Assembly (NCBI GenBank): GCA_947381965.1
Contig: CANCXX010000038.1
Span: 1 to 46,153 of the forward strand
Origin: an uncultured bacterium
GTDB taxonomy: Bacteria > Bacillota > Clostridia > Lachnospirales > Lachnospiraceae
DNA length: 46,153 bases
Direction of reading: 5' to 3'
Positions 35,091-38,959 of this stretch are shown here, one piece after another (the first letter of the stretch is position 1; each line of letters opens with the position of its first letter). Both the position numbers and the translations under genes were made by a program. The notes under the pieces are model-generated. The model worked only from the letters and a program-made list of their open reading frames with translations. It searched no databases and had not been told where the DNA came from.

Positions 35091-35118
35091 ACTGTTCTTT
35101 ACACTTCTTCATATTTTA
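35091..35118 (+). promoter_or_regulatory. Candidate late-sporulation (sigma-K-like) promoter
   Basis: AC (35091-35092), 17-bp gap, CATATTTTA (35110-35118), which fits the Bacillus sigma-K pattern AC-N16/17-CATANNNTA. It lies about 30 bp before the start of the split gene. The motif is short, A/T-rich and could occur by chance. Confidence 0.35.
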
Positions 35119-35148: not shown

Positions 35149-35790
35149 ATGGCTATTGGTTATATAATTATACAGGCGCGGACTGCCCATGATGCCGTCC
35201 CCTTAAGCGGAATAATAATCAAAATACTGGATAACCGGGAAAACACAATTTACCAATTGACAACCGATGAAAATGGGGAAACCGGGAAGCTTCCCCTGGA
35301 AACACTGGAAAAAAGCTTTTCGCAAAACCAGTATTTCACCGGTATTCCCTATATAGGATATAATGTACTTGCGCAAACTTCAGGTTTTAATACTCTTTAC
35401 ATCACAGATATTCCTATTTTGGATGGAGAAACAGCAATTCTCCCTCTTTCTCTCGTCCCCATGCAGGAAATGCAAAGAACCCCTATCCAGACAGAAATCC
35501 ACATTGGGAAACCTGCTGTTGCCATGAGCGGCGCCCGCAGTCAGGATGGAACCCTTTCCGAGCCCTATGTGCTGCGTCAGGTTGTGATTCCCAATCCAAT
35601 TACCATACATCTCGGACCGCCGGAAGCGTCCGCACCCAACGTCCAGATTTCCTTCCCTGACTATATCAAAAACGTAGCCTGCAGTGAAATTTATGCCACC
35701 TGGCCCGATGCGTCCCTAAGAGCCAACATATACGCAATCATTACCTTTGCTTTAAACCGTGTTTACACTGAATGGTACCGGAATCAATAG
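35149..35790 (+). CDS. SpoIID-like/LysM protein, N-terminal part of interrupted gene
   Basis: 213 codons as it stands. Residues 1-105 look like a carboxypeptidase-regulatory-type beta domain (AVPLSGIIIKILDNRENTIY ... TTDENGETGKLP). Residues 168-210 are the start of a SpoIID/LytB-type domain (FPDYIKNVACSEIYATWPDASLRAN), with E180 at the position of the SpoIID catalytic Glu. The reading frame is broken after Y210: the next codons give Arg-Asn-Gln-stop and belong to the inserted element. The missing rest of the SpoIID domain is found in frame at 37772. There is no signal peptide, consistent with a mother-cell protein. The AAGGAG site is good. On its own this product would be a truncated domain. 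Rejoined, the protein has 605 residues. Confidence 0.85.
   Translation: MAIGYIIIQARTAHDAVPLSGIIIKILDNRENTIYQLTTDENGETGKLPLETLEKSFSQNQYFTGIPYIGYNVLAQTSGFNTLYITDIPILDGETAILPLSLVPMQEMQRTPIQTEIHIGKPAVAMSGARSQDGTLSEPYVLRQVVIPNPITIHLGPPEASAPNVQISFPDYIKNVACSEIYATWPDASLRANIYAIITFALNRVYTEWYRNQ
35775..35778 (+). other. attL-type left junction of the recombinase element
   Basis: GTAC, codon phase tgG-TAC, the exact point where homology to the SpoIID-like frame stops. The same GTAC occurs at 37768-37771 in the same phase. The sequence just inside (ACCGGAATCAATAG) is the mirror of the sequence just inside the right end. Confidence 0.7.
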
Positions 35791-35838
35791 TTTTTGGGGC
35801 AGTTTTCCATTGAATAGAAAAAAGCAGCGCCGCATAAG

Positions 35839-35847
35839 CATATAATA
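35839..35847 (+). promoter_or_regulatory. Possible -10 region of the recombinase operon
   Basis: CATATAATA contains a perfect TATAAT (35841-35846) but has no matching -35 17 bp upstream. The same bases fit the -10 of mother-cell sigma factors (CATA-NNN-TA for sigma-K, and 7 of 8 of CATACAAT for sigma-E). Which factor is used cannot be decided by eye. Confidence 0.35.
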
Positions 35848-35871
35848 AATAAACATTCTAAGGATACTTCC

Positions 35872-36102
35872 ATGCGTCCAGATTCAGTATATGAGACTTC
35901 ATTTTCTTTTTCCTGCAAAAACAAATCAACCCAAGTCACGCTTATATTTCCCCGACAGTCTGATCCGGAAGCGGTCCAAAACTTTACCGCCAGACTAAAA
36001 GAGATTTATCTTGACAAAATAACCCACATTGCAGCTTCGGAAAAAACACCCTCTTTCCTTTCCTCTGTCACCAAAAACAGGGAGGAATACAACTTTGTGT
36101 AA
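35872..36102 (+). CDS. Small protein coupled to the recombinase
   Basis: 76 aa, not recognised. N-terminal beta-like segment (YETSFSFSCKNKSTQVTLIF), then a likely helix (DPEAVQNFTARLKEIYLDKI) and a polar tail. It is the first gene in the element and its last 8 bp overlap the recombinase start, so translation is probably coupled. Small genes paired with large serine recombinases can be recombination directionality factors or other accessory proteins; such a role is inferred only from position and size. The ribosome binding site is AAGGA, 8 nt from the ATG. Confidence 0.65.
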   Translation: MRPDSVYETSFSFSCKNKSTQVTLIFPRQSDPEAVQNFTARLKEIYLDKITHIAASEKTPSFLSSVTKNREEYNFV

Positions 36103-37714
36103 AAAAGTACGAACCCTGCTGCGGGTATCCTCCAGACAGCAGCTTCACGATGACGATATTCCCATTCAGAGAGCCGAGGCCATGCAATATATTGCCCAAC
36201 GTCCTGAATGGGTATTTGACCAGGAGTATATTGAAAAAGCGGTATCTGCATACAAAAATACAGTGGAACAAAGGGAGGTTTTACAGAAAATTTTAGCAGA
36301 CGCCCGAAACCGCCAGTTTGATATTCTTCTCACCTATATGTCAGACCGGATTGGAAGACAGGAAGAATACAGTTTTTATGTAGCCGCATTAAACCAGCTC
36401 GGTATAGAAGTCTGGACTATTAAAGACGGGCAGTTAAAAACCCAGGAACACATTGATAAATTGCTGAACTACATACGCTTCTGGCAAAATGAAGGGGAAA
36501 GCAAAAAAACTGGCATGAGGGTAAAAGATACACAAAAGGAACTGGTAAAATCGGGAAAGTTTGTGGGCGGCAGAGCGCCTTATGGCTATCAGCTGGTTCC
36601 TTCCGGTATGGTCAGCAGCCACGGAAGACTTCTAAAAAAGCTTGAAATTATAGAAGAAAAGGCTGAAGTTGTCAGGAAGATTTACCATCTGGCCATCCAT
36701 TGCGGCATGGGATATGAAAAGATAGCCAAAGAGCTAAACAGTCAGGGAATACCATCCATTACAACTGATAAATGGAAATCCGGAACCATAAGGAGCATCT
36801 TAACCAATCCCATTTATATGGGGTATCTAGCTCTTAACCGGAGAGTCCATCAAGGGGGATATATCCATTTGGACCGGAAAAACTGGATATATTCTGATAA
36901 GCAGCTTCCGGAATTAATGATTGTACCGCCACAGACCTGGGAAGCAGCCCAGAAAATCCGCGAAGCAAGAAAAGCAAAGATTAATGCTTCCAAGGAAAAA
37001 GCTTCAAAAGAGTATGAACTGCAGCATCATATACCTTTCAGCACAAGCGGCAGGCTTGCCCTTACGGGCCTTGCCTATTGCGGATACTGCGGAAAAAGGT
37101 TAAAAAACGGAAGCTACTGCAATCACTGGACAACCAAAACAGGGGAAAGCAAAACTTCCTATGCAGGCAGGTATCTTTGTCCTTCAAAATGTCCACAGCG
37201 CTCCTGCTACTCCCAAACTTACCTGGAAAGTATTGTCTTTGAAACAGTTGAACGCTTCCTGGAAGACTTAAAACCTATTAATCTTACTGAGGAATGGCAG
37301 AAAATTAAGCAAAATCAGACTGCAAAGACTGAAAAAGAACGAAAGGAACTTCAAAAAAAACTTCAATTGCTAAATAATGATATTCATACCCTTGAAGAAA
37401 AAATACCGGACGCCATCCGGGAAAACTATTGCTTCAGTGCCGAAAAACTGGCCTCCATCATTAAGGAGAAGGAAACCGAAAGGCAAAAGCTATCCCAAAA
37501 AGCCTGCCTGCTTAAAAGTCAGCTGCTTCTGGCATCAAAGCAATATCGTCAGGCAGAAAAAAGCTTTTCCCTGACTCCAGACTGGAAAAAAGAATTTCAT
37601 AACGCAGACACTAAAATAAAAAAAATGCTTCTCTCTTCTCTCCTTGATAAAGTTACAGTGACAGACAATCAGGTTTGCATTCAGTTCAAAATACGCCCGG
37701 AAGATTTTACATAA
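36095..37714 (+). CDS. Large serine recombinase (site-specific integrase/excisionase)
   Basis: 539 aa. The resolvase-like catalytic domain (1-140) holds RVSSRQQ with S12 as probable nucleophile and the Arg-containing YMSDRIGRQEE. The recombinase domain (about 150-300) contains GKFVGGRAPYGYQL and SGTIRSILTNPIYMGYLALNR. A zinc ribbon (CGYCGKRL, CPSKCPQRSC) and a coiled-coil segment (about 410-470) follow, then the usual C-terminal strand pair (DKVTVTDNQVCIQF). The frame extends upstream, but TTG 36095 is chosen because GGGAGG lies 9 nt before it and this start overlaps the end of the 76-aa ORF; there is no ATG before the catalytic motif apart from one at 36029 that has no site and would add 22 residues. 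It should catalyse excision of the element from the SpoIID-like gene. Confidence 0.93.
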   Translation: MCKKVRTLLRVSSRQQLHDDDIPIQRAEAMQYIAQRPEWVFDQEYIEKAVSAYKNTVEQREVLQKILADARNRQFDILLTYMSDRIGRQEEYSFYVAALNQLGIEVWTIKDGQLKTQEHIDKLLNYIRFWQNEGESKKTGMRVKDTQKELVKSGKFVGGRAPYGYQLVPSGMVSSHGRLLKKLEIIEEKAEVVRKIYHLAIHCGMGYEKIAKELNSQGIPSITTDKWKSGTIRSILTNPIYMGYLALNRRVHQGGYIHLDRKNWIYSDKQLPELMIVPPQTWEAAQKIREARKAKINASKEKASKEYELQHHIPFSTSGRLALTGLAYCGYCGKRLKNGSYCNHWTTKTGESKTSYAGRYLCPSKCPQRSCYSQTYLESIVFETVERFLEDLKPINLTEEWQKIKQNQTAKTEKERKELQKKLQLLNNDIHTLEEKIPDAIRENYCFSAEKLASIIKEKETERQKLSQKACLLKSQLLLASKQYRQAEKSFSLTPDWKKEFHNADTKIKKMLLSSLLDKVTVTDNQVCIQFKIRPEDFT

Positions 37715-37767
37715 CAAAATACCGGCCTTCCCCCTACTACATTTTACTTAAACCCATTGGTTTCGCT

Positions 37768-37771
37768 GTAC
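37768..37771 (+). other. attR-type right junction of the recombinase element
   Basis: GTAC at the point where the SpoIID-like frame resumes (TAC-AAA-AGC-CGG). It matches the left junction at 35775-35778. The 16 bp to its left (ACCCATTGGTTTCGCT) form the left arm of the reconstructed attP. Confidence 0.7.
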
Positions 37772-38959
37772 AAAAGCCGGGGATATAGCTTTGACATAAC
37801 TAACAGCACCGCTTATGACCAGTATTTTGTATATGGACGTCCCATTTATGAATCCATCAGCAGAATTGTTGACGAAATTTTCAATCAGTACGTCCGCATA
37901 CAGGGGCAAAACGCTCCTTACTTTACCTCTTTCTGCAACGGTACTACCGCTACCTGCCGCGGAATGTCCCAATGGGGTACCGTTACACTGGCAAATCAGG
38001 GCCTGTCTCCCCTGCAAATCCTGCGCACCTACTACCCAAAAAATATAGAAATTGCGGAGACAAACATTTATACAGGCGTACTCTCCTCTTATCCGGGCAC
38101 CCCCCTTAAAACAGGCAGTACCGGGCTTGATGTGGAAACCATACAAACTTATCTGAACCGGATACGGCAAAACTATCCTGCCATCCCTGTAATTACCGAT
38201 GACCCAGGTATTTTCTGGGACAGCACCAAAGCCGCCGTTACCAAATTCCAGAGTATCTTTAACCTTGCCCCCGACGGCATTGTTGGAAAATCTACCTGGT
38301 ATAAAATTTCAAGCCTCTATACGGCCGTTACCAGGCTGGCAGAACTTGACAGCGAAGGCACTACCTTAGGAATTGGAACAGTTCCGCCGGATTCTGTGCT
38401 GCGCCAGGGATCCAGAGGTCAGGATGTGATTACCCTGCAATACCTTTTGGATGTAATTTCTGAATTTTATCCCGGCATCCCGGCTCCCGCCCAGGATGGC
38501 ATCTTTGGCAGCGGCACCAGACAATCTGTAATTGCCTTCCAGCAGACAATGGGGCTTAACGCCGATGGCATTGTAGGCGCACTTACATGGAAAGCCTTAT
38601 ATGACACTTATCAGGGAATTAACCAAAACGTTCCTTCCCCCAAGCCGGAACCAGGCATCACCACATATGTAGTCCAGGCCGGAGACAGTCTGTGGCTGAT
38701 TGCCCAGCGGTATAACACCACCATAAACGCAATCAAAAATCTGAACGGGCTTACCAGTGATATGCTAAGCATTGGGCAGGTACTAAAGATTCCGGCTTCC
38801 CAGGCCCTGCCTTATATTGAATATACTGTCCGGTCCGGGGATACCCTCTGGCTGCTAGCCCAGCGGTACAACACCACCGTGGAGGCAATCAGAAACTTAA
38901 ACGGACTTACCAGCGACATATTAAATATTGGTCAGGTGCTTCGAATTCCGGCAAACTAA
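37772..38959 (+). CDS. SpoIID-like/LysM protein, C-terminal part of interrupted gene
   Basis: 395 codons with no start of their own: the open frame reaches back only into the element (TTG at 37757, no ribosome binding site). In restored numbering, residues 211-305 finish the SpoIID domain (RGYSFDITNSTAYDQYF; RGMSQWGTVTLANQGLSPLQ at about 273-292, the SpoIID C-terminal signature). Two PG_binding_1 repeats lie at about 324-392 and 423-489 (SFNLAPDGIVGKSTW-like; LNADGIVGALTW). Two LysM domains follow at about 507-551 and 559-603 (VVQAGDSLWLIAQRYNTTIN; TVRSGDTLWLLAQRYNTTVE). All modules act on or bind peptidoglycan, so a role in spore cortex or coat assembly is likely. Without excision this part should not be translated efficiently. 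Confidence 0.88.
   Translation, partial: KSRGYSFDITNSTAYDQYFVYGRPIYESISRIVDEIFNQYVRIQGQNAPYFTSFCNGTTATCRGMSQWGTVTLANQGLSPLQILRTYYPKNIEIAETNIYTGVLSSYPGTPLKTGSTGLDVETIQTYLNRIRQNYPAIPVITDDPGIFWDSTKAAVTKFQSIFNLAPDGIVGKSTWYKISSLYTAVTRLAELDSEGTTLGIGTVPPDSVLRQGSRGQDVITLQYLLDVISEFYPGIPAPAQDGIFGSGTRQSVIAFQQTMGLNADGIVGALTWKALYDTYQGINQNVPSPKPEPGITTYVVQAGDSLWLIAQRYNTTINAIKNLNGLTSDMLSIGQVLKIPASQALPYIEYTVRSGDTLWLLAQRYNTTVEAIRNLNGLTSDILNIGQVLRIPAN

Follow-up and report, generated by a model that had tools for sequence, protein, structure and literature searches.

Intervening elements that are excised from sporulation genes have been described in several spore formers. For the skin element of Clostridioides difficile, a 72-aa recombination directionality factor is described as being under the control of sigma-E and SpoIIID and as needed for excision (PMC5025042), and gerE of Bacillus cereus is reported to be rebuilt during sporulation by excision of gin (PMC5595907). 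An element in spoVFB, vfbin, is named as a further case in a source that also describes the directionality factors of the known elements as small proteins of 53 and 72 aa that do not resemble one another, and YabG of C. difficile as processing pre-pro-SleC (PMC10747680). In the same species, sleC is described as having a sigma-K promoter and as essential for germination (PMC3789822). Here, we analyzed a 46,153-nucleotide stretch (contig CANCXX010000038.1, C38 in our numbering; hereafter the window) from an assembly of an uncultured bacterium of the Lachnospiraceae (GCA_947381965.1; 4.3 Mb, 92 contigs, estimated contamination of 7.3%), in which a SleC-family gene is split by a segment of 1,993 bp. 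This segment is probably a domesticated intervening element of the skin type, reduced to a minimum, that sits in a SleC-family germination gene and would be excised in the mother cell.

The split gene and its intervening element

All features of the locus lie on the forward strand. A 5' half-gene (35149..35790), which is host coding sequence as far as positions 35775-35776 and terminates in TEWYRNQ-stop, and a 3' half-gene (37769..38959), which encodes the remaining SleC region, two PG_binding_1 domains (PF01471 was detected) and two LysM domains, flank an open reading frame (ORF) for a serine recombinase. Joining the halves gave a continuous frame of 605 residues with no stop, and both the paired half-genes and the restored frame agreed with the preliminary description of this locus. 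The joined protein matched SleC (PDB 9h68; E value, 2e-69), and the alignment ran unbroken across the junction, pairing residues 30-403 with residues 92-477 of 9h68, PG-binding domain included. A 421-aa relative from the same genus matched 9h68 with an E value of 2.4e-130 (residues 16-418). By these alignments, the host gene is a LysM-tailed paralogue of the gene for the spore cortex-lytic enzyme SleC, with predicted cortex-lytic function, and the match of the joined protein to SleC places the insertion in a sporulation gene, as in skin-type elements. The label SpoIID-like, which the preliminary description had given to the host protein without recognizing SleC, was abandoned; TIGR02669 gave only weak partial matches, and a PF08486 search of the genome missed the gene. 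Hereafter, the approximately 421-aa SleC type is called SLEC, and the LysM-tailed paralogue of the window type is called LONG. Uninterrupted homologues, which the preliminary description presupposed, were found in 17 of 60 relatives, with open frames of 555-684 aa and 59-71% identity in the N-half.

The element spans 35775..37767, and its 1,993 bp equal the distance between the two shared cores, in agreement with the size first given. The preliminary description had placed GTAC at both junctions in the same codon phase. The shared core and the restored frame were upheld, and the core itself was narrowed to GT (attL, 35775..35776; attR, 37768..37769); GTAC was rejected because some left junctions read TGGTG rather than TGGTAC, and only GT is common to all. 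We examined the junctions of 52 loci, comprising 7 duplicates, 19 loci with one junction and 26 with both; two of the loci (L063 and L064) are near-identical contigs of a single genome. All 26 loci with both junctions rejoined in frame at GT, within the same codon of the Trp-Tyr junction, and the rejoined sequences read NRVYTEWY or NRVFTEWY followed by a conserved GY.F stretch. When the element ends of these loci were rejoined, they formed inverted repeats centered between G and T, with a mean of 12.3 of 25 positions paired, whereas shuffled arms, which were scored one position away, reached 5.0-7.9. The GT center was the best or tied among the nine centers tested in 22 of the 26 loci. This dyad geometry is that expected of a serine-integrase attP and thus supports GT as the crossover site, although the loci are related and the junction and dyad counts are therefore not independent events. 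In the window, the right attP arm lies inside attL (35777..35796) and the left arm inside attR (37748..37767), as placed by dyad analysis and the arm model. The recombinase gene differs in orientation between loci, and the polarity of core and arms is constant. Insertion in both orientations through a palindromic core was also considered and found unnecessary, since core and arms hold one polarity.

The only plausible genes inside the window element encode a small protein of 76 aa (35872..36102) and a recombinase of 539 aa (36095..37714). The recombinase start, a TTG chosen by homology and an upstream GGAGGA, is overlapped by the small-protein gene by 8 nt. The recombinase carries Resolvase and Recombinase domains (PF00239 and PF07508), so that the element, like those of the skin type, encodes a site-specific serine recombinase; its sequence match to PhiC31 integrase structures was weak (E value, 4.6e-6). 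With catalytic and recombinase domains and an attP symmetric about a dinucleotide, it belongs to the large serine recombinases. Prophage-like content, which has not been obligatory for skin-type elements since gin, is absent from the window element.

The small protein is a candidate recombination directionality factor. A profile found it directly upstream of the recombinase in 38 of 42 loci, a count that is not independent because most of the 38 matches were included in the final profile. The four misses were L120 and three loci with distant recombinases (L070, L074 and L075). Among the 38 loci with a match, 20 show an 8-nt overlap with the recombinase gene, whose start was set by homology, and the 21 aligned copies are 51-89 aa long. 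The family occurred in 5 of 40 genomes, in single copy and always beside the recombinase, so that its genetic linkage to the recombinase held both among loci and among genomes. The predicted model of the protein is a beta-hairpin plus a helix (mean pLDDT, 75). The distant recombinases (approximately 34-37% identity; genomes G007, G002 and G023, respectively) lie in SleC-family genes cut at the same codon, and weak small-protein-like ORFs precede two of the three.

Recurrence, constraint and mobility

In the genus of the window bacterium, a SleC match was found in all 37 genomes searched; it was continuous in 23, cut at residues ~228-234 in 11 (G000, G001, G003, G007, G008, G013, G015, G019, G023, G025 and G033) and partial or odd in 3. 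Only the 3' half was found in G013 and G023, and the halves lay on separate contigs in G003 and G019. The LONG gene was split in the window genome, in G002 and in G030, where it spans two contigs. A scan of a genome collection with the recombinase alignment yielded 124 pattern stretches; the distinct recombinase loci numbered 40, some of which are contigs already in the genus-level sleC set. In every one of the 40 loci, a gene of the SleC family is interrupted at one and the same pair of codons, and the shared insertion point sought in related genomes was found. The record titles of these loci give Lachnospiraceae, other genus names or broader labels; we take the named genera to belong to the Lachnospiraceae. 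None of 62 pattern stretches in IMG/VR was confirmed as a relative. Distant relatives (28-30% identity) were matched in 3 of 324 phage records and 1 of 139 plasmid records, and the stretches fetched from these four records contained no SleC piece or small protein.

Selection on the halves was estimated from pairs that share one old insertion, as judged by junctions and recombinase distance (L067/L068, L066/L092, L096/L101 and, for the 3' half, L069/L118). The dN/dS values of the split halves were 0.009-0.083 at dS 0.5-0.9, compared with 0.013-0.044 for intact SleC pairs and 0.047-0.141 for intact LONG pairs. The split halves are thus under constraint as strong as that on uninterrupted genes. 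For the 3' half, no separate start is evident, and the constraint therefore implies that the gene is rebuilt. In forward-oriented shared-insertion pairs, dS of the recombinase was similar to that of the host halves (0.59 vs 0.88/0.81, 0.67 vs 0.73/0.78, 0.90 vs 0.75 and 0.92 vs 0.54/0.77). In the reverse-oriented class, recombinase dS was 0.00-0.19 and host N-halves had dS of 1.0 or were saturated, as in the pairs with 0.00 vs saturated, 0.04 vs 1.31 and 0.12 vs saturated. These patterns indicate that part of the family has been inherited with its hosts and that part is mobile.

Element sizes ranged from 1,901 to 11,291 bp among loci with both junctions, and the four smallest elements (1,901, 1,959, 1,993 and 2,129 bp) all sit in LONG genes. 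Carriers with strain names are Lachnospiraceae bacterium 28-4 (1,901 bp, in the LysM-tailed paralogue), 10-1 (7.3 kb, in sleC) and 1XD21-87 (4.0 kb, in sleC). Because the same codon is used by mobile and inherited elements, down to ~1.9 kb, the family may form a natural series from mobile element to developmental switch. Several members carry further genes. Two reverse-oriented elements encode a rolling-circle-type Rep (PF23343; L083:7364-8302, + strand, E value of 8e-12; L098:6324-7289, - strand, 9e-10), and L083 additionally carries a small resolvase. A DUF5722 protein (PF18989; E value, 1.3e-133) is encoded at L066:5305-6957 on the - strand, and by eye, similar cargo proteins of ~550-570 aa are present in L063, L065, L069, L073 and L074. 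Genes in the larger elements L067, L068 and L070 resemble, also by eye, those for what we presume to be a nucleoside ABC transporter and thymidine kinase.

Proposed switch and alternative explanations

Two promoter motifs suggest when the element would act. Upstream of the small-protein/recombinase operon, GNATAN-N13-16-CATANNNW, which we take to be sigma-E-like, was present in 26 of 38 loci. Over 200 rounds of dinucleotide shuffling, it occurred in 0.74 loci on average and in no more than 3, and it preceded 8 of 411 other ORFs. The window copy reads GAATAG-N15-CATAAGCAT (35812..35841). A motif that we assign to the sigma-K type preceded 42 of 55 SLEC genes (on average 1.0 and at most 4 in mononucleotide shuffles), and the window host gene has it as AC-N17-CATATTTTA (35091..35118). 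The model needs the excision module to be read early in the mother cell and its target late, which is the order that these two promoters would give. In this model, sigma-E would switch on the small-protein/recombinase operon in the sporulating mother cell, the recombinase, with the small protein as directionality factor, would join attL to attR at GT, and the element would depart as a circle. Sigma-K would next transcribe the rebuilt gene, and the enzyme would be packed into the spore. Because the forespore chromosome would keep the element, the split would be inherited. A skin-like excision switch of very small size, acting on a different host gene, was what the preliminary description had proposed, and this proposal is supported by the single insertion codon in many species, the restored frame and the attP symmetry, together with the dedicated small partner, the mother-cell-type promoter motifs and the constraint on both halves. 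The window genome also encodes SpoIVA, in favor of the model.

Several observations weigh against a mother-cell excision switch. We infer excision and its timing from sequence; neither an excised junction nor a circle was observed. The operon motif was defined only after the sequences had been inspected and is absent from 12 of 38 loci, and a strict sigma-K motif was found in only 6 of 22 LONG genes, the window's included (shuffles: mean, 0.54; maximum, 4). The small protein resembles no known directionality factor in homology or fold; it matched no Pfam family, and a fold search with its model gave no match at an E value of ≤0.001. All sporulation-type sigma factors of the window genome scored below the TIGR02846 cutoff (best, 275.8 vs 298.65 bits); the control genomes likewise contained no sigma factor that passed it. 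The genome also encodes four PF07486 hydrolases, presumably of the SleB/CwlJ type, and SleC may thus not be the sole cortex hydrolase.

An ordinary integrative element whose attB happens to lie in SleC-family genes could simply inactivate its target, with the host halves decaying. The plain mobility of the reverse-oriented class, whose closely similar recombinases sit in widely diverged host genes, and the Rep genes of the two reverse-oriented members examined would fit such an element. The distribution of the split state would fit as well: in a 34-row tree of SleC from the genus, it required 8 changes, at least 4 of them forced by well-supported branches, and clustered no more strongly than shuffled labels (mean, 9.4 changes; 89 of 500 as low). 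However, both halves of old shared insertions keep dN/dS values like those of intact genes, every locus with both junctions restores the frame exactly, and the four elements of 1.9-2.1 kb retain essentially just the small protein and recombinase, which makes simple inactivation unlikely. Excision might instead be real but stochastic or dependent on growth phase, that is, phase variation not tied to the mother cell. There is a precedent in yin, which is described as excised from yabG in part of the population at every time point (PMC10747680). This explanation appears slightly less probable still, given the sigma-E-like motif before the operon, the sigma-K-type motif before sleC and a spore gene as the target. 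That the halves act as separate proteins and need no excision is highly improbable. A possible in-frame TTG at 37757 could start the 3' part, but no evident ribosome-binding sequence precedes it and it falls inside an attP arm; moreover, the cut sits within the SleC-aligned region, and a stop directly follows Trp at several left junctions.

The proposed excision switch may reach beyond the window. The sole SLEC-type gene found in the assembly (contig C41; L073, G000:C41:6000-24000) is also split, by 5,127 bp in which no recombinase relative was found. The att arms of this element, left out of training, scored 24.4 on the arm model, a value reached by none of 46,111 background sites of the window. 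The assembly encodes no close member of the family other than the window recombinase (1219 bits; next, 45). In the simplest reading, the window recombinase would act in trans on the C41 sleC element, with assembly contamination as a caveat. It is quite possible, if somewhat less likely than not, that a single recombinase module serves two germination genes in this genome and restores the LysM-tailed paralogue in cis and sleC itself in trans. If true, the SleC-type germination enzymes of this bacterium would exist only after DNA splicing in a doomed mother cell. An indirect sign of excision, in a single case, may come from G003, in which the 5'-half contig (C100, L078) stops exactly at TGGTA and the 3'-half contig (C67, L153) starts exactly at GTAC. 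Such base-precise breaks on both sides are expected of an assembly graph if excised and unexcised alleles coexist. In G003, we found no recombinase of the window or G023 type, nor any contig that carries the element or its empty site.

Comparison with known systems

In the full-text literature covered on skin, SPbeta/spsM, gin/gerE and yin/yabG, a coverage outside which preprints and most subscription papers fell, no element in sleC was reported. If the proposed switch is real, programmed DNA excision in sporulation also reaches the cortex-lytic enzymes, by which the spore is opened, and does so in gut Lachnospiraceae rather than the model Bacilli. Automatic annotation will label the germination genes of these bacteria as broken, although they are probably rebuilt.

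In its target, recombinase, core and frame, the element is skin-like in sequence and, as far as dN/dS can indicate, in selection behavior. Like skin in sigK of Bacillus subtilis and C. difficile, it places a large serine recombinase within a mother-cell sporulation gene. However, the target of skin is a sigma factor and here it is a cortex-lytic enzyme; C. difficile skin is described as containing 19 genes (PMC5025042), compared with two in the window element, and these two genes, for the small protein and the recombinase, overlap within a single operon. The gin element in gerE of B. cereus is similar in being described as having no phage genes and a serine recombinase with a helper, GirX, but is reported as 28.6 kb with 31 genes, three recombinases and a 9-bp shared sequence (PMC5595907), whereas the window element measures 1.99 kb, encodes a single recombinase and has GT as its core. 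The yin element in yabG of Clostridium botulinum and SPbeta in spsM of B. subtilis are also described as interrupting late spore genes and as combining a recombinase with a small directionality factor. Those two are prophages or prophage-like, in contrast to the SleC elements examined, which are neither and which are found in many species, always at the same codon. PhiC31-type large serine integrases share the Resolvase and Recombinase domains and attP arms symmetric about a 2-bp core; unlike them, the recombinase described here is tied to a single codon pair within a single gene family.

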